From Cenococcum geophilum 1.58 (taxonomy: Eukaryota > Ascomycota > Dothideomycetes > Gloniales > Gloniaceae): a DNA stretch of 64,000 nucleotides. The stretch spans positions 62,001 to 126,000 of the forward strand of contig KV748257.1 of assembly GCA_001692895.1 (NCBI GenBank). Reading direction: 5' to 3'. The translations under genes were made by a program, and so were the position numbers. A model generated the notes under the pieces. That model saw only the letters and a list, made by a program, of their open reading frames with translations, did not search any database and had not been told where the DNA came from. The first letter of the stretch is position 1; each line of letters starts with the position of its first letter. Below, one piece after another: positions 23,957 through 63,784 of this stretch.

Positions 23957-23986
23957 ATAATAATAATAATAATAATAATAATAATT
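23957..23986. repeat. TAA/ATT microsatellite tail of LINE A
   Basis: About nine uninterrupted TAA/ATA units adjoin the LINE A 3' end. Shorter versions of the same tail mark LINE B (41,143-41,152), LINE C (12,728-12,738) and LINE D (55,765-55,775), so the tail is made by the element. Confidence 0.85.
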
Positions 23987-26900
23987 CATTGCTTAACGTC
24001 CGATTTGGATCCCTATTGGGCCTACACGGACTACTCCTTATTTACATATAGGGAGAAAACTCTATTTAAGAAAAATAAGAAAACCCCGTAATCCATCTCC
24101 CTGCCTTTTAGGACTCGCCTAATTAGCGCCTATAAGTCGCCTATAGTGCTTTACTACCTTACTGTTTAACCTTTTTAGGAACTACTGCTGCCGTAATAAG
24201 CCTACGGACGCGCTAGTATTATAAACTATTACTCTACTACTATAGAGTTACTAGGGGGCACCTACTGCTTGCCCCCTTGCCTTTTATTACTATTTCCCTT
24301 GCAACCCAGAACTAATTTAGCATATTTTAACTAATAAGCCACTAGGTAACCGCCTTAAGGCCTTTTTATATTAAGAGTAGTGTATTATAGTTCTCTATGC
24401 CAGCTGCTAAGAGTATTGTTTCTTAATTAGTGCGTAGGGGGCATAGTAATATTACGTGTTTTAGTGTCTGTCTTGGCTAGCTATATTTATATCTTAGGCT
24501 ACCTACTAGGATACCTACCTAGTAAAGCTAATCTTTTAGTTCTATTATTCCTGTTCTTAAGAGTATTGCTATTATATTTTCTGCCTTTGTTAGGCCTTCT
24601 TAGAGCCCTTAGGTATTTACCCCCTATAGCGTTAACTATGCTATAGCTTAGGTTTATCTTACCTAAGTTAGCCTCTATACCTTTAACTCCTATTTACCTC
24701 TCTAGCGTTAGTCCAACTAGTATTATATTGCAGTAGATGGTTTCCTAGCATTCTTATATATTCTACTTTAGCTCCTTTCTCTATCTTACTATTATCTTTA
24801 TTAACCTCTTACACGTCTCCCTTTCTCCTCTATATAGGCCTAGGCTCTAAAGCGGCACTATTCTTCTTTTACTTTTTTTTACCTATTTCTCTAATATCTC
24901 TTCCCTACTTTAGGGTTGTTAGTTTATTCTCCTATAGGGCACCCTAGAGTCCCTCTATAGTTTACTTAGGCGTGTCTTAATGTACTTTATAATATTAGAG
25001 TTATATTTATTTTGCATTCTTTATATTACAGCGGCTTTAATATATAACTATAGGGGGGGAATATTAGATTCCTTCTTAAGCAGTACTATAGCCGTTTACT
25101 TATACCCGCCTATAATACTCTAGAGGTAGGCTGTTTAGACCTTTTAAAGTAGTTTAAGGAGTAATTTAGGGGGGCCCTTCTTAGTTTCTCTAATAGCCTA
25201 AATACTGGATCTATATATTATAGTTGGCCAGACGACTGCTATATATAGTAGGCGTAACCTCTAGAAGCATAGACCCTATATAGAATTAACAATCCTAAAT
25301 AAAGCGATAAACTATGCTTAGCCTTTATAGGCCGCTTGCGCCATATATACGCTCCACCGGAGCTTACTATCTACCTATACTCCTAATACCCTTAGGCCAT
25401 AAACTAGTTAACCCCTAAAGCCTTAGATGCGAATTATATGCTAAAGATCTATAGATTAGTTACGTTTTCTTATAAAATGGATTAGCTAGTATTTCTCTAG
25501 TAAGAATTGGACTCTATAACGTTTTGCCTATTCTATATAAGTGTTATAGGCTTTCTCTAGTATTCTATAATTCTTTGCGGCTATTAGCCCGTATATAATT
25601 AGGTTTATATTATTAATAAAGCCTATCCTCTAGGTCGCCCCTTCCTTAAAGGAGTTAAGTAGTTTGCTTATAAATAAAAGGAAGAGTATAGGCGAGAGGG
25701 GTAATTCTTGTGGTATTCCTATTATAACTATAATAGGGGGGCTCTAGTATCTACTAAAGACCAGTAATATTTCTTTCTGGCCTATAAACCCTTAAATAAA
25801 TTATATAATCTATTCTAGGAAGCCCTTTGCCCTAAGGATATATAGGAGACGCTTATAGGGTATATTGTTGTAGGCACCACTAATATCTAGGCTAAGTATT
25901 AATCCTATAAAGTTCTTTCGCATCGCCTATACAGATTTAATAGTGGTAGCGAGTAGCGTAAGTGCTAATAGTGTTAAGTGGTTCTTTCTTGCCCCTATTT
26001 AGCTTTGTGGTAGTAGGGCGTGTTCCTCTACCATATCTACTATACATTCTACTATTACCCTTTCTAAGATCTTATTAAGGGTGTTTTTTAAGGCAATAGG
26101 GCAGTAGCTTTCTAGAATTAAGTAATCTGCTTTACTTTCTTTTTATAGGATAACCGTCGTTATAGATCTTCTAAGTCGTGGGTAGTAGCCTATAGTAAAG
26201 CATACTTTAGCTATATCTATAAGCTAAGGTGCTATAAGTGGCCCATAGGTTTTTAGGGCCTTATTTAGAATCCTATTTAGTCCTAGTGCTATATTATTTA
26301 AAAGGCGGCTAATAGTTCTAGCCATTTCCTCTATTATTATATCGCTGTTAACCCGTAGGCGAGTTACCGGTATTTCGCCTATAATATTACTAAGGTCTGC
26401 TAGAGCTAGTTAGGGGAAGAACCTTTCTATAAGGATCTTTGCCTTCTTATTATTATTGTTTATAGCCTATAATTCTCCTGCTCTTTATAGGGGTAATAGG
26501 TATAAGTCTTCTGCTAGGCGCCTTACCTTTTTCTTTACCTATTTTACTATAGCCTAAAGGCCCTTATTATAGGGGAGGCTCGGGTTAAAAGTATACTTAT
26601 TTATAAACCGTCTCTAGTTATTCCTTACTTCTTTTTTTAGGGTATTCTTTAGCTAGGTTCTTATATCTTTATATTATCTCTTATCTTTAGGGTCATGGCT
26701 GCTTATATATTTCCTTCTTACTTATTATTAGCTAGTAACTAGAACTGCGCATTATATAGACCATATATATTACGCGTAGGGGCCCAGTTTTAAGATTAGG
26801 CAGTGCTCTTCTAGCCTATTTTTAATCGCTGCCTAGATCCTTTCTAGTCTTCGGTTAATTTCCTTAGGGGTAGCCAATAAGCCTCGCTTGTTTGGTATTA

Positions 26901-29900
26901 GGTGGATTTCTTCTAGGTCTTAGAGTTATTATTTAACTATATTAAGGAAACTATCTATTTTAAGCTTCCTTATTGCGTATCTTTTTCTATTTAGTTACGC
27001 TTTAGTATTTAGGTCTAGCTATATCTAAATAAGGATATAGTTTAGAGTAAGTGCCTATTCTTCTTTAGGGTTGCACCTTTTAAGTCTTTAGTATAGGCCT
27101 TCGTCTATAAATATAAGGTTAATTATACTTCTAGCGGTGCCTTATTGCTATATAATTACTCCTAGGGGGGTGGCTAGCTTAAGGCCCTAGATATTTATAG
27201 CTCTTAGTAGGCACTCTAACTGTTAATCTACAGCAATATAGATACCCCCCTACTATAGGTAGTAGAGGTTTATATCTCCTAGTAGAATAAACTCTATACC
27301 TTTAGTTTCTAATAAGCTTATTACTAATATAATATTCTCTGTTTATAGGACCCCTTTAACCCTAGGGTTATATATATTAATAATTTATACCAGTCCCCTA
27401 TATATTTAGATTATTATAACTATAATATCTGGGTTAACTGCCTACTATAACTATAAGGATAGGCTAATAGCCTTACTAATTATAAAGCATACGCGTATAG
27501 CTGCTTTTAGTTTATATAGAAGCTAGAATTCTTAGGGGTAGTATATTAATTATATAAAGGTATTATAATACAGTTCTTATATAGCAAGGATATAGTATTT
27601 CTTTAGGTCTAAACTGTCTAGTAGGGGCCTTATAAGGCAGTAGTTTATATTACTACAGTTATACTATATAATAGATAGGTAGCGGACCCCTAGCAAAAGT
27701 CCTTTAACTCTTCTTCGTTCCTTACTTCTTCTATTTCTACTTTCTTTAAGATATTTAGAGCTTCTATCTCTTATATCTACACCCTAGTTACTACTTATTT
27801 TATATAGAGCTTTTTATTCCCGTATTTTATATTCCTATTAGCGCTTCTATATCTAAATCTATTATTATTACCAGTTCTTCCCCTGTTCTTACTAGTTAGC
27901 TATATACCCTTTATAGGTTAGCTATAAATATTATATTTGCCGTATTAAGTCTAATTCTTAATTATCCTAGTTTTAAGCCTACTGTCGCTGTCTATAGGGG
28001 TCTTCCTATAGGGCGTTCTCTCCTTTATATCCCCTATAACCCTTATATCCCTAATTAGTCTAATAATATCGCGCGGCGTCGCTTCTGGCCCGTTAAGGCT
28101 TGGGATAGCCAGCCTAGCCCTCTAGTATTAAAGGTAAGAAACACTAGGAAGGCGCCTACGTCCCCTTAGCTTATTACCTATTATTTCCATTTATATAACC
28201 TAGCGTATAGTTATTCCCGTAGCTATTAAGCCCTTACCTTTTATCTCCTATATTTAATATAGTTTTCTTTTTCCTATGCCTTATATATACTTCGGTAGCA
28301 GTTTATACATTTTATTTAGTCTTAATTTAAGCAGTGTCTCGTATTATAGGGGCCTATATAGTGGCCGCAGCATACCTATACTGCGTATATAGATTAGGTG
28401 TGTCCCTATTATATATAGCGATAGCATTATTTTAGGCGTAGTCTATAGTTATAGAGCCTTATATTATATATAAGGCCATTTATAATTATTTCTTTTTAAA
28501 TAAGGAGTTTTTGCATTCCTAGTGTATATATGCTAATAATAAAGGAGCTATATATTCGTCTAGCGTCTCCAGCGAGTCTCTAGTAACCCTTATATCCTCT
28601 TATTGTTCTTATTATATACTTAGTTTATATTTTCCTATTAAAGCTATTAAATTTAGGTGATTTTAAGTCCTAGTATAAGGCGTTCCGTTTGTCTTACTAT
28701 CTCCTATATAATTGCTATATTATCTACCTAGTGTCCCTTTTCTACCCTAAGGCTTATAGAAACCGCTGGGACTTTAACTAGGTAATCCTTATAGAGTACT
28801 TTTATGCTAATACGTTCTCCTAGCCTATCTCCTACCCTTATAGCTTATTTCTTTGCCTATTAGTCCTTTAGAGTAACTCTAATATCTCCACTCTTAAGGT
28901 GTTAGACTATAACAGCGTTATAAACCTCTTTATATATCTTTATAAGGACTTTTGTTTCTAATTATCCCCTAAGCCCCTCTACTTATTCTATGTTTGGTTA
29001 TATTATAATTATATACCCATTTATTAACTTAAGGGGGGTGGGTTCCCTATGCTATAAAAGCGCAGCTATAGCGGCCTAGGTGCAGTTCGCCGGTAAGGGG
29101 GGGTTATACTTATTTTTAATTTTGCTTAGCCGTTAGAGGATTTAATTAAGGGTTTGCTAGAGGGGCGCCTAAGGTTTACTAGACTAGCGGAGCTATTCTG
29201 CTAGCTATATTAGTTTATTATAGCTAATAGTTACTCCCCTATAATTCTAGATACTAAACGCGTCTAATAGGCTTTATATTTTATTAGATGCCTTCTTAAT
29301 AGAGGTATTTCCGCTTTATAGTATAGTATTCGCCCGTCTTTATTGTGGAGGGCTATTACTAGGCGTAGTTCTAGCGGTCACGCGTAAGTGCAAGCCACCG
29401 TTATTTGATATATGCCTCCCCTGCGATGCATACATCTTAGGGGGATTCTCTAGGTGTTTTTTAAGGTTCTTTTGGTTAGTTTTGGTCTTTTTAGGCCGGT
29501 AGGTGGTTATATAGTAGAGTTTAACGTACCTACTTATTTAGGCCTCTACCCTAGTTTTCTAGTATTTATCCTAAACCTAGGCCTAAAGGCCTAGGGGCTT
29601 TCTATAAGCAGTTAGCTGCCACTACCTTAATAGGGGGTTTTACTAGTTCTTTTGGATATCTTATAATAGGTTAGCCTAAGTACTAGTCTACCCCCCCGCA
29701 GTCTATATAAGAGTCTCCTCCTAAAGTTGGTACGCTTTTATATGGCTTAGAAGCCTTCTATAGCCTCTAGTTTTATATCTTTTTTATTATTTCCGCTAGT
29801 ATAGGCATAAGCTGCCTTTTCTAGGGGTTATAACTCCCGTCTTACGTGCCTATTAGCGTAATCCTGTAAAGGTATTATAGCTACATCCTATAATATAGAA

Positions 29901-30924: not shown

Positions 30925-31944
30925 TATAAAAAAAAGGATCCCTATGCCCTTATCGCGTATATTTTATAATCTTAGAGCTAGTATAAGCCTAAGGGTGTCC
31001 TGTTATACGCCTAGGACACATTTATATTAACTAGCTGGATAAGGCTAGTTTTGGGCCTAGCTGCGAGCTAGGTAGTTATATATTAGGCGGTTTTTATATC
31101 CTAGTTTCCCTTAATAGGCCTCCCTAGATGGTAGAATAGGAGCTTTAAGCGGAGGCAGTAAGGCTCCTAGTGTTATTAAGGGTAATGCTTTATACGCGTC
31201 GCGGGCTTATTACTACAGAGTTAAACAACAGCGCTACACACGCTGCGACGGCTCTCTACCATTGCCTCTGCACTTGGCCATTAAGAAGAATAGGATTCCA
31301 GATAATGTTTCCACCCGCGGCGACGTAGACGCGTGTAGTAGGGCTTTGCGGGCTAACCGCGTATTATAGTTAAAGATTAAAAGACTTTCTTAAACCATAT
31401 ATAAGAAAAATGGTGGGCATATATTATATATACTACTCTTAACACTAAGAACGGGGATATAGGATATTTATTTTTGGATATTTAGCTATATATAGTTAAG
31501 GAACTAGAGATTCTATAGGAATATATAGACTTAGAGGATATTTTTAATAAAGAGGCTATATAAACCTTACCTAACCCTATATTAGTTAAGTATAAGATAA
31601 ATATAGGGGATAAATAACCTCCTTTTAGACCATTATATAACTTATTAGAAAATAAGCTAGTAGTATTATATTAATATATAGTAGACAATCTTAAGGATAG
31701 ATTTGGCCCTCTATAAGCCTACATCGGGAAAATATTCGCAGGCTGGGTTTCAAGTCGACTTTGTTAAGCGCGTTTCGCGACCAACTTAACATATTTAAAA
31801 GTCAAATAACACGCAATTAACCTGCAATTGACCTGCAATTAACCAACTTGACATATTTAAAAGTTAAATAACACGCAGTTAACCAACTTATATATTCCTT
31901 AATATACAATTAAGGTAATATAATATATTATTTTTAAGTTATAT

Positions 31945-32192
31945 GCTCAAGAGGCTCTACACGAAGCTCTACACGAAGCTCTGCGACAGAGGCTCTGCAC
32001 GAGGCTCTGCACGAAGCTCTGCACGAAGCTCTGCGACAGAGGCTCTGCACGAAGCTCTGCGTACAGATGCTCTGCACGAGGCTCTGCATGAAGCTCTACA
32101 CGAAGCTCTACACGAAGCTCTACGTACAGAGGCTCTGCACGAGGCTCTGCGCGAAGCTCTGCGTACGGAGGCTCTACATGAAGCTCTACATC
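31945..32192. repeat. 12-bp tandem array (GAAGCTCTGCAC) with 15-bp variants
   Basis: About 20 units of GAAGCTCT(A/G)CAC and close variants with GCGACAGAG or GCGTACAGAG inserts. The period of 12 keeps three frames open on both strands, giving low-complexity frames such as repeated EALH; these are artefacts, not genes. CpA is retained. Confidence 0.9.
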
Positions 32193-32302
32193 GGGTCCCC
32201 GCACGTGCCTCTGCCAAGTTACCCCCTTTGCAGCCACCTTATTTTTTACCCTTCCTTACATCCTCCCTACCTTAGGAGGCACTGGAACGGCAGCCAGNAG
32301 AG

Positions 32303-32382
32303 GACCGTCGCCAGAACTAGATAACCGTCGCCAGAACTAGACGACCGTCGCCAGGACCAGATGACCGTCGCTAGAACCAGAT
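32303..32382. repeat. 20-bp minisatellite, short array (4 units)
   Basis: Four units of (G/A)ACCGTCGCCAGAACTAGAT and variants, starting just after an ambiguous base at 32,298. Confidence 0.9.
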
Positions 32383-32623
32383 AATAACCGTTTAAATAAC
32401 TAGCTAGCAAACACCATAAACAATTCAATCAATTAATTAATTAAATTAAACTAGAGCTTTAATATCGGCCTATTACTAAATTAAATTAAGACTTCCTAGG
32501 GAGGCACCTTAGACGACTACTATTTAAATATATAGCCAGCAAACGGCTATAGAGAACAATTCGAATTAATAAGAGCCTTTAATTAGGCTAACTCCTCCCC
32601 CGAATTAAACTAGATACTAACGC
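32383..32623. repeat. Spacer copy 1 (about 240 bp)
   Basis: Begins AATAACCGTTTAAATAACTAG and contains GGGAGGCACCTTA and TATATAGCCAGC(A/G)AACGGCTAT. It is repeated as spacer copy 2 at 33,124-33,352, with scattered substitutions and small indels. Confidence 0.85.
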
Positions 32624-32722
32624 AGGTAGGTAGGTAGGTAGGTAGGTAGGTAGGTAGATAAGTAAGTAGATAAATAAGTAGGTAGGCAGATAAGTAGGTA
32701 GGCAGGCAGGTAGGTAGGTAGG
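32624..32722. repeat. GGTA tetranucleotide array
   Basis: GGTA repeats with AGTA, GATA and GGCA variants. They follow spacer copy 1 directly and end at GAGAGGACC, which also precedes the first 20-bp array. Confidence 0.9.
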
Positions 32723-32726
32723 AGAG

Positions 32727-33123
32727 GACCATTACTAAAACTAGACGACTGTTACCAGAACTAGATAACCGTCGCTAGAACTAAATAACCGTCGCTAGAA
32801 CTACGACCGTTGCCAAAACTAGACGACCGTCGCTAGAACTAGACGACCGTCGCCAGAACTAGACAACCATCGCTAGAACTAAACGACCGTCGCTAGAACT
32901 ACGACCGTCGCTAGAACTAGACGAACGTCGCTAGAACTAAATAACCGTCGCCAAAACCAGATAACTGTTACCAAAACTAGACAACTGTTGCCAGAACTAG
33001 ACGACCGTCGCCAAAACTAGATAACCGTCGCTAGAACTAGATAACCGTTACTAGAACTAGATAACCGTCACTAGAACTAGATAACTGTCGCTAGAACTAG
33101 CAGACGACCGTTATTAGAACTAG
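32727..33123. repeat. 20-bp minisatellite, long array (about 20 units)
   Basis: Units of GACCGTCGCTAGAACTAGAC with substitutions and two short units, the same family as 32,303-32,382. Confidence 0.9.
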
Positions 33124-33352
33124 ATAATAACCGTTTAAATAACTAGCTAGCGAACACCACAAACAATTTAATTAATTAATTAAATTAATTTAGAGCCTAT
33201 TACCAAATTAAATTGAATTAAGGCCTTCTAGGGAGGCACCTTAAATAACTACTGTTTAAATATATAGCCAGCGAACGGCTATGGAGAACGATTCAAATTA
33301 ATTAGAGCCTTTAATCGGGCCGACCTCTCCCCTAAATTAAATTAGACACTAT
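33124..33352. repeat. Spacer copy 2 (about 230 bp)
   Basis: Direct repeat of 32,383-32,623, again between a 20-bp array and a GGTA-derived array. Confidence 0.85.
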
Positions 33353-33757
33353 AGGCAGATATAAACAGGTAGGCAATATAGACAGGTAGATAATACAAAT
33401 AGGTAGATAATATAGATAGGTAGGCGATATAGATAGGTAGGTAATATAGATAGGTAGGTAATATAGATAGGTAGGTAATATAGATAGGTAGGTAATATAG
33501 ATAGGTAGGTAATATAAATAGGTAGACAATACAGACCGGTAGACGATGTAGATAGGTAGGCGATGCAGATAGGTAGACGATATAGATAGGTAGACAATAT
33601 AAATAGGTAGGTAATATAGATAGGTAGATAATATAGACAGGTAGATAATATAGACAGATAGGCGATATAAATAGGTAGGTAATGCAGATAGGTAGGTAAT
33701 ATAGATAGGTAGGTAATATAGATAGGTAGATAATGCAGATAGGTAGTAGATATAGAC
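33353..33757. repeat. 17-bp array (GATAGGTAGGTAATATA)
   Basis: About 24 units. Three units make 51 bp, so minus-strand frames are open and show a 17-residue period (YLYYLPIYITYLSILPT); these long frames are array artefacts. The unit looks derived from GGTA repeats plus AATATA. Confidence 0.9.
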
Positions 33758-34210
33758 ATAATAGATTATATAAAGAAGTGTATACAATTTATCTTAATAG
33801 CTTTATAAACGGCTTTAAAGTAGCCTTTATTATCTAAAATTATAAGTTATATAGGTTGCGCAGGTTATGTAGGTTGCGTAGGTTATATAGGCTATATATA
33901 GGCTACGCGCAGGCTGCGTATTAAATGAACTCAATATAGGCTGGTTTGTCAAGTTGGTTAATACCCTTAATGGCCCGCCAACGACGCCAACTTCTAGCAG
34001 CTAAGGTCATTTACAAGGGACAATATTTTGCCGATATAGTAGGGGCACTAATTATATTTATACCTAAAAAGGACAAGACCCTTTACCTCTATATTAACTA
34101 TTAGGCGCTAAATAAGATTACTATAAAAAATTACTACCCGTTACCCTTAATAGGGGAGCTTATTAATAGGCTGTTAAGTATAAAAATATTTATAAAATTA
34201 GATTTAAAAG

Positions 34211-34560
34211 TGTTACAGAGTAAGTATAAGCGATAATAATATATAGTAAGGTAGATATTATTAAGCTATATATATAGACTATATGGGGAGGTTAAGACGT
34301 TATATAAGGGAAGAAGGTAGGAAAACGGGAAGAAAGGGCATATATTGTTAACTTAGTTGCTTAGTTAATACGTATATAAGTAGAATAGGGTTTAGGTTAT
34401 AGTCCTAGCAGAACTTAGTAGAATATAGCAGAATACTATAGATTGCCGTTAGATTGCTATTAGATTGCCGTTAAATTACTATTTTACGGTTAGTCTCTAA
34501 TTGCTAAGTTGGTGGAAATAGGTAGATGTGTATAAGGTGTTATAGGGGTATCCCATAATA
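34211..34560 (-). repeat. Left (3') LTR of G3
   Basis: Direct repeat of 63,415-63,784, starting TGTTACAGAGTAAG, with a polypurine tract adjacent on its inner side. Confidence 0.92.
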
Positions 34561-37500: not shown

Positions 37501-40500
37501 TAGCTTATCGGCTTCTTTTTATAAGAATATATCTAGGCGATAATAATACTTTATTAGTACCTTTATAGCAGGGTTAGTATACTTCTTTAGTACTAAGGCC
37601 TTTTTAATATCGGCTATTGTAATAGCGAAGATTATATACTTGGGTTTCTTAGCAAGTTACGCTAGTAGGGTAGCTCTAATTATGCGGATATCTAGGGTAC
37701 CAAGCTTGCTTATATTGTCTATAGTTTCTTATTTAGGTTTAGGTTTAGTATTAGGTATAAAGTTAGTATTAAATTTAGGTTTAGGTTCTTTAAGAATCCT
37801 TTTTATAGTAGAATACTAGTCCTTTTAGTATTTTTATATATAGAGCTTAAGCTTTTACTTAGCTTAGGGTGGTGTAGTACTTAGTAATAACTTATGGAAT
37901 TTAGTAGAGTTTTTAGATTCTTAGTGGATGTTAGTAGAATTCTTAGGCGTAGAGTGGGTATTAGTGGAATTCTTAGGCGTAGAGTGGGTATTAGTAGAAA
38001 TCTTACGTTAGTAGAATTTAGTAGAATTCCTTAGGTATAGGGTAAATAGTTATAGAAATTTTAGACTAGTGGATCCTAGTAGATTTTTTAGATTTTAGTT
38101 TTAGGTCTAAGTAGTAAATTATAAGGCACTTCTGCTTATAATGGGAGGTAGTAAATAGAAGCTTAAGGTTATCTTAATTAATAGTTACCTTATATAGCTT
38201 TATTTAGGGTTATTTAAGGATTATTAAGTGACCTAGGGTAGTAACGAAAAGTTTAATTAATTCTTTATGGTATAACTACCTGCCTAGAGCTCTTGCTGCA
38301 CCCGGCCCAAAAAAGACCAAAACCAACCAAAAGAACCCTAAAAAAACACCTAGAGAATCCCCCTAAGATGCACGTATTACAGGGGAAATATATATCAAAT
38401 GACGGTGGTTCGCACTTATGTGCGTCCACTAGAACCACGCCTAGCAATAGCCCTCTATAATAAGAATGGGCGAATACTACACTATAAAGCGGAAAGACCT
38501 CTATTAAGAAGGCATCTAATAAAATATAAAGCCTATTAGACGCGTTTAGTATCTATAGTTATAGGGGAGTAACCGTTAGCTATAATAAACTAATATAGCT
38601 AGTAGAATAGCTCCGCTAGTTTAGCGAACCTTAAGCGCCCCTCTAGTAAACCCTTAATTAAATCCTCTAATAGCTAAGTAAAATTAAAAATAAATAAAAC
38701 CCTTTTTTACCAGTAAACTGCACCTAGGCCGCTGTAGCTACGCTTCTATAATATAGGGAACCTACCCCCCTAAAGACAATATTTGGGTATATAATTATAA
38801 TATAACTAAATATAGAAAAAGCAGAGGGGCTTAGGGGATAATTAGAAATAGAAATCCTTATAAAGATTTATAAAGAGGTTTATAACGCTATTATAGTCTA
38901 ATACCTTAGGAGCGGAGATATTAGAGTTATCCTAAGGGACTAATAGGTAAAGGAATAAGCTATAAGGGTAAGAGATAGGCTAAGAGAATATATTAGTATA
39001 AAAGTACTCCGCGAAGATTACCTAGTTAAAGTCTTAGCGGTTTCCCTAAGCCTTAGGGTAGAAAAGGGACGCTAGGCGGATAATATAGTAACTATATATA
39101 TGATAGTAAAATAAACGGAACGCCTTATACCAGGACTTAAGATTACCTAAATTTAATGGCTATAATAGGAAAATGCAAACTAAGTATATAATAAAATAAT
39201 AAAAGAATATAAGGGTTGCTAGAGACTTGCTAGGGAGGCGCTAGTTAAACGTATAGCTCCCTTATTATTAGTATATATATACTAGGAATGTAAAAACTCC
39301 TTATCTAAAAAGGTATTATTATAAATGGCCTTATATACAATATAAGGCTCTATAACTATAGACTCCGCCTAGAATAATACTATTACTATATATAATAGGG
39401 ATATACCTAATCTACATACGTAGTATAGGTGTGCTGCGGCTACTATATAGGCCCCTATAATATAAGATATTGCTTAAATTAAGACTAAATAAAATGTATA
39501 AACTGCCACTAAAGTATATATAAGGCGTAGGAGAGAGAAGACTGTATTAAATATAGGAGATAGAAGGTAAGGGCTTAATAGCTGCGGGAATAACTGTATA
39601 CTAGGTTATATAAATGAAAATAATAGGCAATAAGCTAGGGGGGCGTAGGTGCCTTTCTAGCGTTTCCTACCTTTAATACTAGGGGGCTAAGCTAGCTATC
39701 CTAAGCCTTAACGAGCTAGAAGCGACGCCGCGCGATATTACTAAACTATATAAGGATATAAGGGTTATAGGGAATATAAGGGAGAGGACGCCCTATAGGA
39801 AGACCCTTATGGACAGCTATAGTAAGCTTAAGACTAGGATAATTAAGAATTAGACTTAATGCGGCAAATATAATATTTATAGCTAACTCTTAAAGGGTAT
39901 ATAGCTAACTAGTAAAAATAGGGGAAGAACTAGAGATAATAATAGATTTAGATATAGAAGCGCTAGTAGGAACATAAGATATGGAAATGAAAAGCTTTAT
40001 ATAAAATAAGTAGTAACTAGGGTGTAGATATAAGAGATAGAAGTTCTAAATATTCTAAAGAAAGTGGAAATAGAAGAAGTAAGGAATAAAGGAAAGGTAA
40101 AGGACCCTTATTAGGGGTCCGCTACTTATCCATTATATAGTATAACTGCGGCAATATAAACCACCGTCTTATAAGGCCCTTACTAAACAGTTTAGACCTA
40201 GGGAAATACTATATCCTTACTATATAAGAGCCGTATTATAATGCCTATATATAATTAATATACTGCCCCCGAGGATTTTAGCTCCTATATAAACTAAAAG
40301 CAGCTATATATATATACTTTATAATTAGCAAGGCTATTAGCCTGTCCTTATAATTATAGTAGGTAGTTAACCTAGATATTATAGTAATAATAATCTAGAT
40401 ATATAGGGGACTGGTATAGATTATTAATATATATAACCCTAGGGTTAAAGGGGTCCTATAAATAGAGAATATTATATTAGTAATAAGCTTACTAAAAACC

Positions 40501-41142
40501 AAAGGTATAGAGTCTATCCTATTAGGAGATATAAACCTCTACCACCCGTAGTAGGGGGGTATTTATATTACTGCTAAACGATAGGTAGAGTGCCTACTAA
40601 GAGCTATAGACACCGGGGGCCTTAAGCTAGCCACCCCCCTAGGAGCAATTATATAGCAATAAGGCACCGCTAAAAGTATAATTAACCTTATATTTATAGA
40701 TAAAGGCCTATACTAGAGACTTAAAAGATATAAACCTAAAGAAAAATAGGCACTTGCCTTAGATTATATCCCTATTTAGATATAGCTAGATCTAGATATT
40801 AAGGCGTAACTAAATAATAAAAGATATATAATAAGAAAGCTTAAGATAGACAGCTTCCTTAATATAGTTAAATAATAACTTTAAGACCTAGAAGAAATTT
40901 ACCTAATACTAAATAAGTAAGGCTTATTAGCTACCCCTAAGGAAATTAACTAAAGACTAGAAAAGATCTAGGCAGTAATTAAAAATAGGCTAAAAGAGTA
41001 CTACCCGGTTTTAAAACTAGGCCCCTATACGCAATATATATAGTCCGTATAATACGCAATTCTTATTACTAGCTAATAATAAGTAAGAAGAAAATATATA
41101 AGTAGCTATAATTCTAAAGATAAGAGATAATATAAAGATATA

Positions 41143-44100
41143 ATAATAATTTATTACTTAACGTCCGATTCGGATCCCTATTAGGCCCACGCGGACTACT
41201 CCTTATTTACATATAGGGAGAAAACTCTATTTAAGAAAAATGAGAAAACCCCGTAATCTATCTCCCCGCCTTTTAGGACTCGCCTACTTAGCGCCTACTT
41301 AGCGCCTACAAGTCGCCTATAGTGCTCTACTACCTTACTATTTAACCTCCTTAGGAACCACTGCTGCCGTAATAAGCCTACGGACGCGCTAGTATTACAA
41401 ACTATTATTCTGCTACTATAGAGTTACTAGGGGGTACCTACTACTTACCCCCTTGCCTTTTATTACTATTTCCCTTACAACCCAGAACTAATTTAGCATA
41501 TTTTAACTAATAAGCCACTAGGTGACCGCCTTAAGGCCTTTTTATATTAAGAGCAGTGTATTATAGTTCTCTGTGCTAGCTACTAAGAGCATTATTTCTT
41601 AATTAGTGCGTAGGGGGTATAGCAGTATTATATATTTTAGTGTCTGTCTTAGCTAGCCATATTTACATCTTAGGCTACCTACTAGGATACCCACCTAGTA
41701 AAGCCAATCTTTTAGTCCTATTATTCCTGTTCTTAAAAGTATTGCTATTATATTTTCTACCTTTATTAGGCCTTCTTAGAGCCCTTAGGTATTTACCCCC
41801 TATAGTATTAACTATACTATAGCTTAGGTTTGTCTTGCCTAAATTAGCCTCTATACCTTTAACTCCTATTCGCCTCTTTAGCGTTAGTCCAACCAGTATT
41901 ATATTACGGTAGATGGTTTTCCGGCGTTCTTATATGTTCTACTTTAGGTCCTTTCTCTATCTTACTGTTATCTTTACTAACCTCTTACGCGTTTCCCTTC
42001 CTCCTTTATATAGGCTTAGGCCCTAAAGCGGCACCATTCTTCTTCTGCTTTCTTTACCTGTTTCTCTAATATTTCTTCCCTACTTTAGGGTTATTGGTTT
42101 GTTCTCCTATAGGGCACCCTAAGGTCCCTCTATAGTTTACTTAGGCGTGTCTTAATATACTTTATAATATTAAAGTTACGTTTATTTTACGTCCTTTATA
42201 TTATAGCGGCTTTAATATATAACTATAGGGGGGGAATATTGGATTCCTTCTCAAGCAGTACTGTGGCCGTTTACTTATACCCACCTATAATACTCTAAAG
42301 GCAGGCTATTTAGACCTTTTAAAGTAGTTTAAGGAGTAATTTAGGGGAGCCCTTCTTAGTTTCTCTAATGGCCTAAATACTAGATCTATATATTATGGTT
42401 AGCCGGACAACTGCTATATATAGTAGGCGTGACCTCTAGAAGTATAGACCCTATATAAAATTAACAATCCTAGATAAAGTAATAAACTATACTTGGCCTT
42501 TATAGGCCGCTTATGCCGTATATACGCTCTACCAGAGCTTACTATCTACCCATACTCCTAATACCCTTAGGCCCTAAACTAGTTAACCCCTAAAGCCTTA
42601 GATGCGAATTATATACTAGAGATCTATAGATTAGTTACGTTTTCTTATAAAATAGATTAGCTAGTATTTCTTTAGTAAGAATTAGACTTTATAACGTTTT
42701 GCCTATTTTATATAAGTGTTATAAGCTTTCTCTAGTGTTCTGTAATTCTCTGCGGCTATTAGCCCGTATATAATTAGGTTTATATTATTAATAAAGCCTA
42801 TCCCCTAGGTCGCCCCTTCCTTAAAGAAGTTAAGTAGGTTGCTTATAAAGAAAAGGAAGAGTATAGGCGAGAGGGGTAATTCTTATGGTATTCCTGTTGT
42901 AACTATAATAGGGGGGCTCTAGTATCCGCTAAAGACTAGTAATGTTTCTTTCTGGCCTATAAACCCTTAGATAAATTATATAATCTATTTTAGGAAGCCC
43001 TTTACCCTAAGGATATATAGGAGACGCTTATGGGGTATATTATTATAGGCACCACTAATATCTAGGCTAAGTATTAATACTATAAAGTCCTTTCGCATCG
43101 CCTATATAGATTTAATAGTAGCAGCGAGTAGCGTAAGTGCTAATAGTGTTAAGCGGTTCTTTCTTACCCCTATTTAGCTTTATAGTAGTAGGGTGTATTT
43201 CTCTGCCGTATCTACTATATATTCCGCTATTACCCTTTCTAAGATCTTACTAAGGGTGTTTTCTAAGGCAATAGGGCGGTAGCTTCCTGGGATTAAGTAA
43301 TCTACTTTACTTTCTTTTTGTAGGACAACCGTTATTATAGATCTTCTAAGTTGCGGGTAGTAGCCTATAGTAAAGCATGCTTTAGCTATATCTATAAGCT
43401 AAGGTGCTATAAGTAGCCTATAGGTTTTTAGGGCCTTATTTAGAATCCCATCTAATCCTAGTACTATATTATTTAAAAGGCGGCTAATAGTTCTAGCCAT
43501 TTCCTNTATTATTATGTNGCTGTTAACCNNTAGGNAAGTNACNNGTGTTTCGCCNNTAATATTACTAAGGTCTACTAGAGCTAGTTAGGGGAAGAACCTT
43601 TCTATAAGGATCTTTACCTTCTTATCGTTATTATTTATAGCCTATAATTCTCCTACTCTTCGTAGGGGTAATAGGTATAGGTCTTCTATTAGGCACTTTG
43701 CCTTTTTTTTTATTACCTATTTCGCTATAGTCTAAAGGCCCTTATTATAGGGGAGGCTCGGGTTAAAAGTATGCTCGTTTATAAACCGTCTCTAGTTATT
43801 CCTTACTTCTTTTTTTAGGGTATTCTTTAGCTGGTTTTTTGTGTCTTTATATTATCTCTTATCTTTAGGGTTATAGCTACTTATATATTTCCTTTTTGCT
43901 CGTTATTAGCTGGTAACCAGAACTGCGCATTATATAGACTATGCGTGTCGCGCATAGGGGCCCGGTTTTAAGATTGGGTAGTGCTCTTTTAGCCTATTTT
44001 TAATTGCTGCCTAGATCCTTTTTAGTCTTTGGTTAATTTCCTTAATGGTAGCCAATAAGCCTCACTTGTTTAGTATTAGGTGGATTTCTTCTAGGTCTTA

Positions 44101-46710
44101 GAGTTATTATTTAACTATATTAAGGAAACTGTTTATCTTAAGCTTCCTTATTACGTATCTTTTTTATTTAGTTACGCTTTAGTATCTAGGTCTAGCTATA
44201 TCTAAATAGGGATATAGTCTAGGGTAAGTACTTATTCTTCTTTAGGTTTGTACCTTTTAAGTCTCTAGTATAGGCCTTTATTTATAAATATAAGGTTAAT
44301 TATACTTCTAGCGGTGCCTTATTGCTATATAATTGCTCCTAGGGGGGTAGCTAACTTAAGGCCCTAGATATCTATAGCTCTTAGTAGGCACTCTAACTAT
44401 TAATCTATAGCAATATAGATACCCCCCTACCGTAAGTAGTAGAGGTTTATATCTCCTAATAGGATAAACTCTATACCTTTAGTTTCTAGTAAGCTTATTA
44501 CTAATATAATATTCTCTATTTATAGGACCCCTTTAACCCTAGGGTTATATATATTAATAATTTATACCAGTCCCCTATATATTTAGATTATTATAACTAT
44601 AATATTTAGGTTAACTGCCTACTATAACTATAAGGATAGGCTAATAGCCTTACTAATTATAAAGTATACGCGTATAGCTGCTTTTAGTTTATATAGGAGC
44701 TAAAATCCTTAAGGGTAGTATATTAATTATATAAAGGTATTATAATACGGTTCTTATATAGTAAGGATATAATATTTCTCTAGGTCTAGACTATCTAGTA
44801 GGGGCCTTACAAGGCGGTAGTTTATATTGCTATAGTTATACTATATAATAGATAGGTAGCGGACCCCCGGCAAGGGTCCTTTAACTTTCCTTTATTTCTC
44901 GCTTTTTTTATTTCCACTTTCTTTAGAATATTTAGAGCTTCTATCTCTTATATCTATACCCTAGTTACTACTTATTTTATATAGAGCTTTCTATTCCTAT
45001 ATCTTATGTTCCTATTAGCGCTTCTATATTTAAATCTATTATTATTACTAGTTCTTCCCCTATTCTTACTAGTCGGCTATATACCCTTTATAGGTCGGCT
45101 GCGAATATTATATTTACCGTATTAAGTCTAATTCTTAATTATCCTAGTCTTAAGCCTACTATTGCTGTCTATAGGGGTCTTCCTATAGGGTGTCCTCTCC
45201 CTTATATCCCCTGTAACCCTTATATCCCTAATTAGTCTAGTAATATTACGCGGCGTCGCTTCTAGCCTATTAAGGCTTGGGATGGCTAGCCTAGCCCTCT
45301 AGTGTTAAAGGTAAGAAACGCTAGGAAGGCGCCTGTGTCCCCCTAGCTTATCGCCTATTATTTCTATTTATATAACCTAGCGTATAGTTATTCCCGTAGC
45401 TGTTAAGCCCTTACCTTCCGTCTTCTATATTTAATACAAGCTTTTTTTTCCTACGCCTTATATATACTTCGGTAGCAGTTTATATATTTTATTTAGTCTT
45501 AATTTAAGCAATATCTCGTATTATAGGGGCCTGCACAGTAGCCGTAGCACACCTATACTACGCATATAGATTAGGTATATCCCTATTATATATAGCAATA
45601 GCATTATTCTAGGCGTAGTCTATAGTTATAGAGCCTTATATTATATATAAGGCTATTTATAATTATTCCTTTTTAGATAAGGAGTTTTTATATTCCTAGT
45701 ATATATATACTAATAATAAGGGAGCTATGTATTTGTCCGGCGTCTTCCTAGCAAGTCTCTAATAACCCTTATATCCTCTTATTATTCTTATTATATACTT
45801 AGTTTATATTTTCCTATTAAAGCTATTAGATTTAGGTAATTTTAAGTCCTAGTATAAGGCGTTCCGTTTATCTTACTATCTCCTATATAATTGCTATATT
45901 GTTTACCTAGCGTCCCTTTTCTACCCTAAGGCTTATAAAAACCGCTAGGACTTTAACTAGGTAATCCTTATAGAGTACTTTTATACTAATACGTTCTCCT
46001 AGCCTATCCCCTACCCTTATAGCTCGTTCCTTTGCCTATTAGTCCTTTAGGGTAACTCTAATATCTCCGCTCTTAAGGTATTGGACTATAATAGCGTTAT
46101 AGACCTCTTTGCGTATCTTTATAAGGACTTCTATTTCTAATTATCCCCTAAGCCCCTCTACTTATTCTATATTTGGTTATATTATAATTAAATACCCGGT
46201 TATTAACTTAAGGGGGGTAGGTTCCCTATACTATAAAAGCGCAGCTATAGCGGCCTAGGTGCGGTTTACCGGTAGGGGGGAGTTATACTTATTTTTAATT
46301 TTACTTAGCCGTTAGAGGATTTAATTAAGGGTTTACTAGAGGGGTGCCTAAGGTTTACTAAACTAGCGGAGCTATTCTGCTAGCTATATTAGTTCGTTAT
46401 AGCTAATAGTTACTCCCCTATAATTCTAGATACTAGACGCGTTTAATAGGCTTTATATTTTATTAAATGCCTTCTTAATAGAGATATTTCCACTTTATAG
46501 TATAGTATTCGCCCGTCTTTATTATAGAGGGCTATTGCTAGGCGTAGTTCTAGCGGTCGCGCGCGAATGCGAGCCACCGTCGTTTGACGTGTGCCTTCCC
46601 TGCAATGCATGCATCTTAGGGGAATTCTCTAGGTGTTTTTCAGGGTTCTTTTAGTTAGTTTTAGTCTTTTTGGGCCGGGTGTAGCAAGAGCTCCTTTTAA
46701 GATAGAATTT
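41143..46710 (-). mobile_element. LINE B: 5.57-kb LINE inserted in LINE D
   Basis: A 14-bp target duplication AATATAAAGATATA (41,129-41,142 and 46,711-46,724). Length is 5,568 bp, the same as LINE D. Minus-strand order: start GAGCTCTTGCTACACCCGGCC (about 46,693), ORF1-like CCHC patch about 45,580-45,440, endonuclease patch about 44,460-44,430, reverse transcriptase GI-x-LPLSPILF box about 42,897-42,855, 3' end at 41,143 with ATT tail. It is very similar to LINE A over the shared part. Many stops; several ambiguous bases at 43,506-43,555. Confidence 0.9.
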
Positions 46711-51600: not shown

Positions 51601-54600
51601 CCGCCTTTAAATACGAGAAGGTAACAAATAGAAAACCGCATTTATATCGCGCTTCGGCCAATTCAAATATACTATTATGCCCTTTGGCGTATATAACGGC
51701 CCAGGCAGCTTCTAAAGCTATATTAATAACGCCTTATGGGACTACCTTAATAACTTCTGCTCTGCGTACCTAGATAATATACTTATTTATAGCAATAACC
51801 CTTCTAAGTATACCGAGCATGTTTAAAAGGTCCTATAGCGCCTTAGGGACGTAGGACTTTATATTAATTTAAAGAAGTGCGAATTCTTAGTTATAGAAGT
51901 AAAATACCTTAGACTAATCGTTACTACTAAGGGTGTCCGTATAGACCCTAAGAAGGTACGTATAATTACCGAATGGTAAACCCCTAACTGCATTAAAGAC
52001 GTATAAGCTTTCCTTAGTTTTGCCAACTTCTATTAAAAATTTATATATAACTTCTTAGGTGTTATAGCACCACTTATAGCAATAATATAAACGAAGGGCT
52101 TTTCCGTAAAAGAAAGAAAAATATATCTATGTTTTATCTGGACGCCTAAATATAAGAAGGCGTTCTAAGACCTTAAAGATACTTTTACTAAAGCACCTAT
52201 CCTAGCTTACTTTATACTAGGACGACAACTCTATTTTAAGACTAACTCCTTAGACCACGTTAATGTAGGCGTCCTCTCCCAGATAGGTGACAACGGTCTT
52301 CTCTACTTAGTTATATTCTATTCGTCTAAGCTTATACTACAAGAATATAACTATAAGATCTATAATAAGGAACTTCTCGTAATTATATAAGCGTTTAAGA
52401 AATTCTAACCGGAACTCTCCTTAGCAGAACCTAACTAGCCAACTAAAGTCCTTACGGATTATCGCAACCTTAAGTACTTTATAACTATAAAATAGCTAAA
52501 CTAACGCCAAGCACGCTGGAACGAGTTCCTTTCTAGTTTTAACTTTAAAATTGTATATAGGTTAGGAGTATAAGGTACTAAGCCTAATAGCCTAACACAC
52601 CGCTTATAAGACCTTCCTTAGTCTAAAGATAACCCCTGTAACTAGTTCCAACAATAGACAATCCTAAAAGCACGGAATTTGGCCCTAGGTATGCTACCTA
52701 CGATAGAGTTAACTATACCTTAGCTCCACACCACAGAACTAAAATTACCTCCCGAAATTAACGAGCTTATTACTACGGCATATAACACCTCTGTTAACCT
52801 ATTACTATATTAACTTATTACCGCAAAGACCACTAGCGCCCGTACGCTGCTGACTAAACTCTAAAGCTTAGGCTAGATTAATATGGCAGCCTTAGAAGTA
52901 AAAGAGAATAGGCTCTATTATAGAGGCCGTCTATTTATCCCTAACTTAGAAAATCTACAATGGTAACTAATCTAAATGGCCTATAACCTCTAATTAAGCG
53001 GCCACCTAGGTAGAGGAGGAACCTATAAGCTTCTTAGCCGATACTACTTTTGGCCTAAAATAATAGACTTAGTTAAACGCTTTATAGGCGCCTGCTACGG
53101 TTATAAGCGCGCTAAGGCCTTTAATATAAAGTACTAAGGACTACTATACCCTCTACTAGTACCTATACAACGATAGGCAGATATCGCTATAGATTTCGTT
53201 ATTAACCTACCACCCTATAAGCGATATAGCCGTACCTATAAGAACATCCTTATAATAATATACCAACTTATAAAAGAGCGCCACTACGTCCTAACCAAAG
53301 GCGTAGCCGTTAGCAACGTTACTAATGCCTTTTTTCGCAAAATCTACCGATTATATGGGTTACCTAACTTAATTACGTCCGACTGAGGTATATAGTTCGG
53401 CTCTAATATATAGAGACAAATCTGCCAACGCCTTGGCATCTCTATTAAGATGTCTATATCCTTTTACTACAAAACTACTAGGTAACTGGAAAACGCTAAT
53501 GCTAGTATAAAAGCGTACCTACGATAGGTAGTCGCCTATAGTTAAGATAACTAGGTAGATTACCTCCTACTAGGTAAATTCGCAGCGAATAACTACGTCT
53601 TAACTACTATAGGACTTACCCCGTTCTTCGCAAATAAGGGATATTACCCTTAATCTAGTATAGAACCACCAGAACCTATTAATAAGAAACTGCTATATGG
53701 AAAACGCCTTAAGATGCTATTTGCCAACCAGTATATAGACCGCATAAAAAATCTACTTAATTACTGTAAGGGAGAAATGGCCTAGGCTTAAGTAAAGCAG
53801 GCCTACTTCGCCGACTATTATAAAACGCCACCACCGGAGATGCGTGTTGGCGACTAGGTATGGCTAAATGTATATAATATCTCTACGCAGAGGCCTATAA
53901 AGTCACTTAATTATAAGAACCTCGGCCCCTACCTAATTAAACAAGTCATTAATAGGGGAGCCGTATACGAGCTAGAGCTCCCGCCTGCCCTAGCTACCCG
54001 CGGGATATGGCCTATATTTTACCTATAGCTACTATACCTTTACTAGCCTAACCCCTTACCGGGGCAGACACAGCCTAAACCCCTATTAGTACTAATCTAA
54101 GATAAGAACAAAGATAAGAACTATAAGGAGTGGACCGTTAAATAAATTATTGACTCTAAATACTTTAGCAAAGGTAGAGGATAACGGCTCTACTACAGAG
54201 CTATATACACAGGATTCGACATAAATTAGCCAGAATGGCAACTATAGGAAAACTTTAAAAATGTAAAGGATCTAATTAGCGACTTTTACTACGNNAACCC
54301 ACAGAAACTGGGCCTAAGCAGAGATTTTATACCTAATCCTCTATAGGAGCCCTTATAGAGTTAAACCGTTGTACATTACCACGTAGGGGCAAATTGCCGT
54401 TAGATTGCCGTTAGATTGCGGTAAAGTATAATTACGTGACCGGAATATCGTTAAGATGTTTAGGAACTTTGACTAGCGGTTAAAGTTATCTAATTGGTTG
54501 GATTCTTAGATGCCAAGCCTTATTATATAACGTTGTTTTAAGCCTTTAGCGATACCCCCTTTTCTTCTTTTCTATACCCTAAGTGTCCCTTCTATATATA

Positions 54601-63414: not shown

Positions 63415-63784
63415 TGTTACGGAGTAAGTATAAGCGACAATAATATATAGTAAGGTAGATATTATTAAGCTATATATATAGACTATATAAGGAAGTTAAG
63501 ACGTTATATAAGAGAAGAAGGTAGGAAAACGGGAAGAAAGGGCATATATTGTTAACTTAGTTGCTTAGTTAATACGTATATAGGCAGAATAGGGTTCAGG
63601 TTATAGTCCTAGTAGAACTTAGCAGAATTTGGTAAAACTTAGTAAAATATAGCAGAATGCCGTAGATTACCGTTAGATTACCATTAGATTGCCGTTAGAT
63701 TGCTATTTCGCGGTTAGTCTCTAATTGCTAAGTCGGTGAAAATAGGTAGACGTATGTAAGGTGTTACGGGGGTGTTCTATAACA
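63415..63784 (-). repeat. Right (5') LTR of G3
   Basis: About 370 bp, the partner of 34,211-34,560. It contains several AGAACTTAGCAGAA-like and GATTGCCGTTA short repeats and ends at the AAAAG duplication. Confidence 0.92.

Follow-up and report, generated by a model that had tools for sequence, protein, structure and literature searches.

Animals, plants and a bacterium are known to have non-autonomous DNA transposons that carry tandem repeat arrays (PMC9659126, PMC4079207, PMC4596501). Tetris of Drosophila virilis, apparently a non-autonomous DNA transposon, contains internal tandem repeats and has been proposed as a source of satellite arrays. Its terminal sequence is common to the MITE DAIBAM (PMC4079207). 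The MITE miDNA4 of Xenopus tropicalis, Xmix and Xstir of X. laevis, lepidopteran MITEs with (GTCY)n repeats, and Pearl of bivalves are class II non-autonomous elements that carry or generate tandem repeats (PMC9659126), and a minisatellite-bearing MITE is present in the bacterium Porphyromonas gingivalis (PMC4596501). In the fungus Mycosphaerella graminicola, MITEs are flanked by 2-bp duplications (TA in eight families and CT in one), and there is a family of non-LTR retrotransposons in which length is set by the copy number of a tandem repeat. That array-bearing element belongs to class I, and the part of the report available to us mentions no DNA transposon with internal arrays (PMC4522978). 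We found no fungal DNA transposon of the form described below in the literature searched (mostly open-access papers, some available in part).

We found an element of 2.3 kb at positions 31722-34036 of the window, the 64-kb stretch of Cenococcum geophilum 1.58 DNA analysed here, with borders that inspection of the sequence places exactly to the base. The left terminal inverted repeat is CATCGGGAAAATATT (31722-31736, forward strand), and the right one, on the reverse strand, is TATCGGCAAAATATT when read as its reverse complement (34022-34036). The two match at 13 of 15 bases. TA is present on both sides, at 31720-31721 (assigned from the sequence and from the empty site described below) and at 34037-34038. 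A sequence-only reading of the window had reported near-perfect 15-bp inverted ends with TA on both sides here, and this was confirmed.

The interior of the element is laid out as follows on the forward strand. The left subterminal region (31737-31953) contains short 11-bp repeats at 31813-31844, called by TRF; in many other copies this position has a longer array with a period of ~40. Next come a 12-bp array (GCTCTGCACGAA, 18.4 units, 31954-32187), a first 20-bp array (4.1 units, 32304-32384), a first spacer copy (32385-32623, from the sequence and from self-alignment of the window), a GGTA array (24.8 units, 32624-32722), a second 20-bp array (18.5 units, 32735-33100), a second spacer copy (33101-33358, from the self-alignment) and a 17-bp array (ATATAGATAGGTAGGTA, 23.4 units, 33359-33756), all arrays being TRF calls. 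The right subterminal region (33757-34021) contains short repeats at 33846-33891 (TRF), and its outer part is akin to the right end of ~0.5-kb relatives of the element. Positions 32304-32720 and 33044-33460 match at 78.6% in the self-alignment. On the basis of this alignment, the middle of the element looks like a module (20-bp array, spacer and GGTA-type array) that is present twice. The 12-bp, 20-bp, GGTA and 17-bp arrays were found where the sequence-only reading had placed them, but its two spacers are better described as part of an internal duplication. The spacer pattern had 95 matches genome-wide, compared to 0 for a control.

The element had also been said to contain almost no unique DNA. 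This was too strong: TRF arrays cover 54% of the window copy and 50-73% across the 24 complete copies described below. Six open reading frames of at least 60 amino acids overlap the window copy and seven were found in another copy (L081), in both cases running mainly through arrays (the 12-bp or 17-bp array in the window copy). None of these frames, read without introns, was a plausible gene.

Within the 64-kb window, the four array patterns had no match beyond the borders of the element. The window also contains three small arrays with an 11-bp unit of the AGATTGCCGTT type, called by TRF at 34439-34477, 54393-54419 and 63654-63703, direct repeats of 5.5 kb (23960-29499 and 41127-46678, 91%) and inverted repeats of 2.9 kb (38287-41138 and 43844-46693, 88%). 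The long direct and inverted repeats are probably copies of retroelements.

We found that the element is one of many. The genome searched was the assembly from which the window was taken (177.19 Mb in 162 contigs), and copy numbers derived from scored candidates are lower bounds. A search with the whole element gave 117 alignment rows (40 of 2174 candidates scored), and the limits of many alignments were bases 1 or 2 and 2314 or 2315 of the query. The right end alone had at least 40 matches of 83-100% (40 of 515 candidates scored), and the left end at least 67 rows (40 of 565 candidates scored). A degenerate pattern for the 15-base end, YATYGGSAAAATATT, matched 566 places in the genome, compared to 24 for the reversed control. 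By eye, 86 of the 100 listed sites (of 566) were left-type ends. Of 20 places sampled, 17 had left-type ends; 15 of these had the subterminal sequence of the array family and two belonged to short relatives. Units of the 12-bp array were present in 5 of those 15 short stretches. By extrapolation, rather than by count, the family comprises several hundred copies. The sequence-only reading would have been undermined had no second copy with the same ends existed, and many such copies were found.

We examined 33 loci (L001-L030 and L081-L083). Twenty-four contained a complete copy, and nine were omitted with an end that was missing, altered or outside the stretch. The complete copies are 1935-2960 bp long, and their two ends match each other at 14 of the 15 bases in seven copies, 13 in thirteen, 12 in two and 11 in two. 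L081-L083 form a second array subfamily with the arrays in the same order as in the first type, and the right ends of L082 and L083 are identical over 243 aligned bases. Two ~0.5-kb relatives, L062 (564 bp) and L075 (515 bp), have identical-type ends and different middles.

The complete copies are flanked by 2-bp duplications. The duplication was exact in 23 of the 24, the remaining copy having AA on one side and GA on the other. In comparison, a 3-bp match was present in 1/24 and shifted offsets gave 0-4/24. The duplicated sequence was TA in 11 copies, TT in six, AA in two, CA in two, TG in one and GG in one. The earlier expectation of further copies with matching ends and TA duplications was thus borne out for the ends and for the 2-bp length, but only in part for the TA. 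One copy (L025:1501-3609) lies within the 17-bp array of a second member of the family, with TA on both sides.

We found an empty site for the window copy. The left flank (31560-31721, forward strand), by eye part of a fossil Gypsy-type reverse transcriptase, was joined to the right flank (34039-34199, forward strand) with a single TA, and all 40 scored copies of the surrounding retroelement (367 candidates) matched this query. The matches cover 321-323 of the 323 query bases. They therefore cross the junction, indicating a clean empty site. In two retroelement copies in which we read the junction it was identical, with a length difference of four bases upstream of it. By eye, the joined flanks read in frame as a reverse transcriptase motif region. 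These results bear out the proposal that the element sits cleanly in a fossil reverse transcriptase region.

The copies carry many mutations. C-to-T changes that are biased to CpA are the pattern of repeat-induced point mutation (RIP), a fungal process. For the 21 copies of the first type, we counted changes in the right end. C-to-T changes were found at 75/252 CpA sites (74/357 on the other strand), were lower at CpG (17/273; other strand, 27/273), and were rare at CpT (4/294; 4/399) and at CpC (2/168; 5/315). In pairwise comparisons of the right ends, transitions were approximately 10 times as frequent as transversions. Judged by these counts, the element copies are heavily mutated in a RIP-like manner.

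The order of the arrays is constant and their lengths are not. The called arrays were in one order throughout the 24 complete copies, and all five main arrays were called in 19 of them. L013 had no called 12-bp array, and L027, L028, L082 and L083 had no GGTA array and a single 20-bp array. In L006 and L015, TRF called the 17-bp array at a period of 8. Among the 24 copies, unit counts from TRF were 7.8-58.9 for the 12-bp array and 3.4-35.1 for the 17/18-bp array, and the second 20-bp array had 5.3-25.6 units in copies with two 20-bp arrays. Two copies at different sites, L018 and L025, have identical right ends (265 bp) and differ in unit number both for the second 20-bp array (14.4 in L018, 5.3 in L025) and for the 17-bp array (18.2 and 22.9), which indicates that arrays can alter in length more quickly than the ends acquire mutations. 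Across pairs of copies, the difference in array count bore no relation to divergence for the 12-bp array (Spearman, -0.02) or the 20-bp array (0.01) and a weak relation for the 17-bp array (0.26; pairs not independent).

We compared array units within and between copies, using a unit finder that was loose. Counting transversions, units differed by 0.169 within and 0.169 between copies for the 12-bp array, 0.931 and 0.930 for the 20-bp array, and 0.982 and 1.093 for the 17-bp array. The equal values for the 12-bp and 20-bp arrays are as expected if the arrays predate dispersal of the element. Shuffles fell at or below the observed within-copy value in 65, 90 and 100 of 100 cases for the 12-, 20- and 17-bp arrays, giving no support for homogenisation in place. 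Counting all differences, including those of RIP type, the values were 2.40 and 2.54 (12-bp), 3.69 and 4.01 (20-bp), and 3.94 and 4.29 (17-bp). The slightly greater likeness within copies could reflect RIP affecting each copy separately or a degree of local turnover.

We conclude, with a probability of roughly 0.9, that the element represents a family of non-autonomous cut-and-paste DNA transposons. This conclusion is drawn from the recurring copies, the fixed 15-bp ends, the 2-bp duplications, the empty site, the constant order of the arrays, and the finding of no plausible gene. A transposase encoded elsewhere would bind the shared ends and move the whole block, with the arrays carried along as ancestral cargo. 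The same ends are found on the ~0.5-kb relatives, so movement was probably by a transposase acting in trans. Slippage, unequal exchange or repair, at the time of each move or later, might lengthen or shorten the arrays and so give different unit counts, and RIP-like mutation would degrade the copies afterwards. The alternative of arrays formed in place through local amplification, the inverted ends being a coincidence or the remains of an old MITE, is very improbable. Some local turnover does appear to be real, given how strongly array lengths vary among copies and the slightly greater likeness of units within copies in the count of all differences, but local amplification would not account for one array order and common ends in 24 complete copies at different sites, 23 with exact 2-bp duplications, or for the empty site.

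The family resembles MITEs in having fixed terminal inverted repeats, a target duplication with an empty site and, in the window copy and L081, no coding capacity. MITEs in the strict sense are shorter than ~0.6 kb, and at 1935-2960 bp the array copies exceed this size. The 15-bp ends and the internal, direct arrays are not those of a foldback element. The inverted ends and target duplication also set the family apart from Helitrons, which have neither (PMC4522978). The sequence-only reading was upheld in proposing a mobile element that disperses arrays: copies recur, with common ends, 2-bp duplications and an empty site. Its proposal of a new class was not, as the element behaves as a family of non-autonomous DNA transposons, and such transposons with arrays are known from organisms other than fungi.

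Which superfamily supplied the transposase is a separate matter. TA is the commonest duplication, and genes of the Fot1/pogo type (PF03184) are abundant, with at least 150 matches in the genome (150 of 713 candidates scored), as would suit a MITE of the Tc1/mariner (pogo/Fot1) kind that inserts strictly at TA. However, 12 of the 24 complete copies have exact duplications that are not TA (TT, AA, CA, TG or GG), so Tc1/mariner is not a natural home, and by eye the 100 listed end sites (of 566) have no listed PF03184 match closer than 3 kb. We regard this origin as unlikely. A piggyBac-type (DDE_Tnp_1_7) transposase with a relaxed target seems equally unlikely. It was suggested by the 117 PF13843 matches in the genome and by a match (E = 7.1e-17) that lies between CATCGG-type ends in L091, but the gene there is part of a nested element with ends of its own (TATCCCTTC...GGGATA), and a comparison by eye placed no PF13843 match at less than 3 kb from any of the 100 listed end sites (of 566). 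In addition, the target duplication of piggyBac elements is TTAA, and that of this family is 2 bp. Somewhat better placed, and still doubtful, is a defective member of a superfamily that combines 2-bp duplications with subterminal repeats, such as CACTA/EnSpm or a relative. CACTA/EnSpm elements make duplications of 2-3 bp and have ends that start with CACTA or CACTG. The 2-bp duplication without a fixed sequence and the short ends fit such an element, as do motifs of the GCAGGCTG type, present close to the ends of 5 of 5 copies checked; against it, the ends here are CATCGG rather than CACTA or CACTG, and no transposase was seen with the profiles searched (PF03184 and PF13843). With low confidence, we take a CACTA/EnSpm-like or other 2-bp-duplicating superfamily to be the most natural home of these non-autonomous transposons.

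We found no autonomous partner with CATCGG ends when PF03184 and PF13843 matches were compared with 100 of the 566 end sites and when three longer loci were inspected. These loci, L089, L090 and L091, had the look of long forms of the element; alignments indicated that they are short relatives carrying insertions, a reading that for L089 and L090 comes from alignment gaps alone. The piggyBac-type gene in L091 was dropped as a candidate partner, as it belongs to the nested insertion. The nested element has at least 40 copies, L091 included (40 of 4879 candidates scored), and none of the other four copies in which ends were read has a CATCGG end (one chance-like match, 3 mismatches). Likewise, no CATCGG-type end was found at five Fot1-type loci (L084-L088; one chance-like match, 2 mismatches). 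The piggyBac-type (DDE_Tnp_1_7) element itself extends over L091:337-3911, and its ends, which begin TATCCC, are also found in L094-L101. At five of its insertions with ends read, no TTAA duplication was visible, and a 2-bp TA duplication or none fits better.

The 12-bp array is also found outside the element. Its pattern had 8764 matches in the genome (overlapping), compared to 149 for a control. By eye, 3 of 17 clusters of 12-bp arrays in the first 2.98 Mb of contig C1 (C1:1-2.98 Mb) were close to exact end sites; the remaining 14 may be outside the element or in copies with changed ends. Also by eye, exact spacer matches in C1-C5 were near an exact end at 6 of 13 loci. Two C1 loci with 12-bp arrays and without exact ends, L104 and L105, were examined on one side of each array (701 and 661 bases) and had no end within 4 mismatches. 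They match the two sides of a single other repeat (L028:416-941), which lies beside the copy in L028. This repeat, unrelated to the element with inverted ends, carries the 12-bp array as L104 and L105 do. It begins with TGTCACAG, preceded by a stretch rich in purines, and by eye this suggests an LTR. A third array, at L086:3383-3528, is approximately 1.4 kb from a PF03184 match, where, by eye, that Fot1/pogo-type element ends. These three loci indicate that the 12-bp array is not private to the element. They do not support the earlier suggestion that the element seeds new satellites: two of the three arrays outside it are in another repeat family and one is beside a Fot1-type element. The element may have donated the array or acquired it, or the array may have reached both from a shared source. 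A wider reading, less likely than not, is that minisatellites pass between unrelated mobile elements and spread as passengers of several transposon classes, at least the 12-bp array being common to the five-array DNA transposon and a family resembling LTR retrotransposons.

So far as the available parts of the published accounts go, the family is like Tetris in being a non-autonomous DNA transposon with tandem repeats and with ends common to other elements. In contrast, Tetris is a foldback element with repeats of ~220 bp within its inverted repeats, whereas here the ends are 15 bp and five main arrays with units of 4-20 bp are internal and not inverted (PMC4079207). The miDNA4, Xmix, Xstir, (GTCY)n and Pearl elements are each named with one kind of repeat and are from animals; the fungal element has five ordered arrays that make up half or more of its length (PMC9659126). 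As in the P. gingivalis MITE, a minisatellite lies inside a non-autonomous element, the host in that case being bacterial (PMC4596501). What is distinctive here is the number of arrays, the share of the element that they occupy, their fixed order, and the host.

These findings extend array-bearing DNA transposons to a fungal genome with RIP-like mutation, a process expected to act on repeated DNA. The scattering of satellite arrays over genomes is usually inferred after the fact. In this family each jump would plant ready-made repeat arrays at a new site, and the many copies, clean duplications, empty site and differing array lengths would allow the change in arrays per transposition to be measured.
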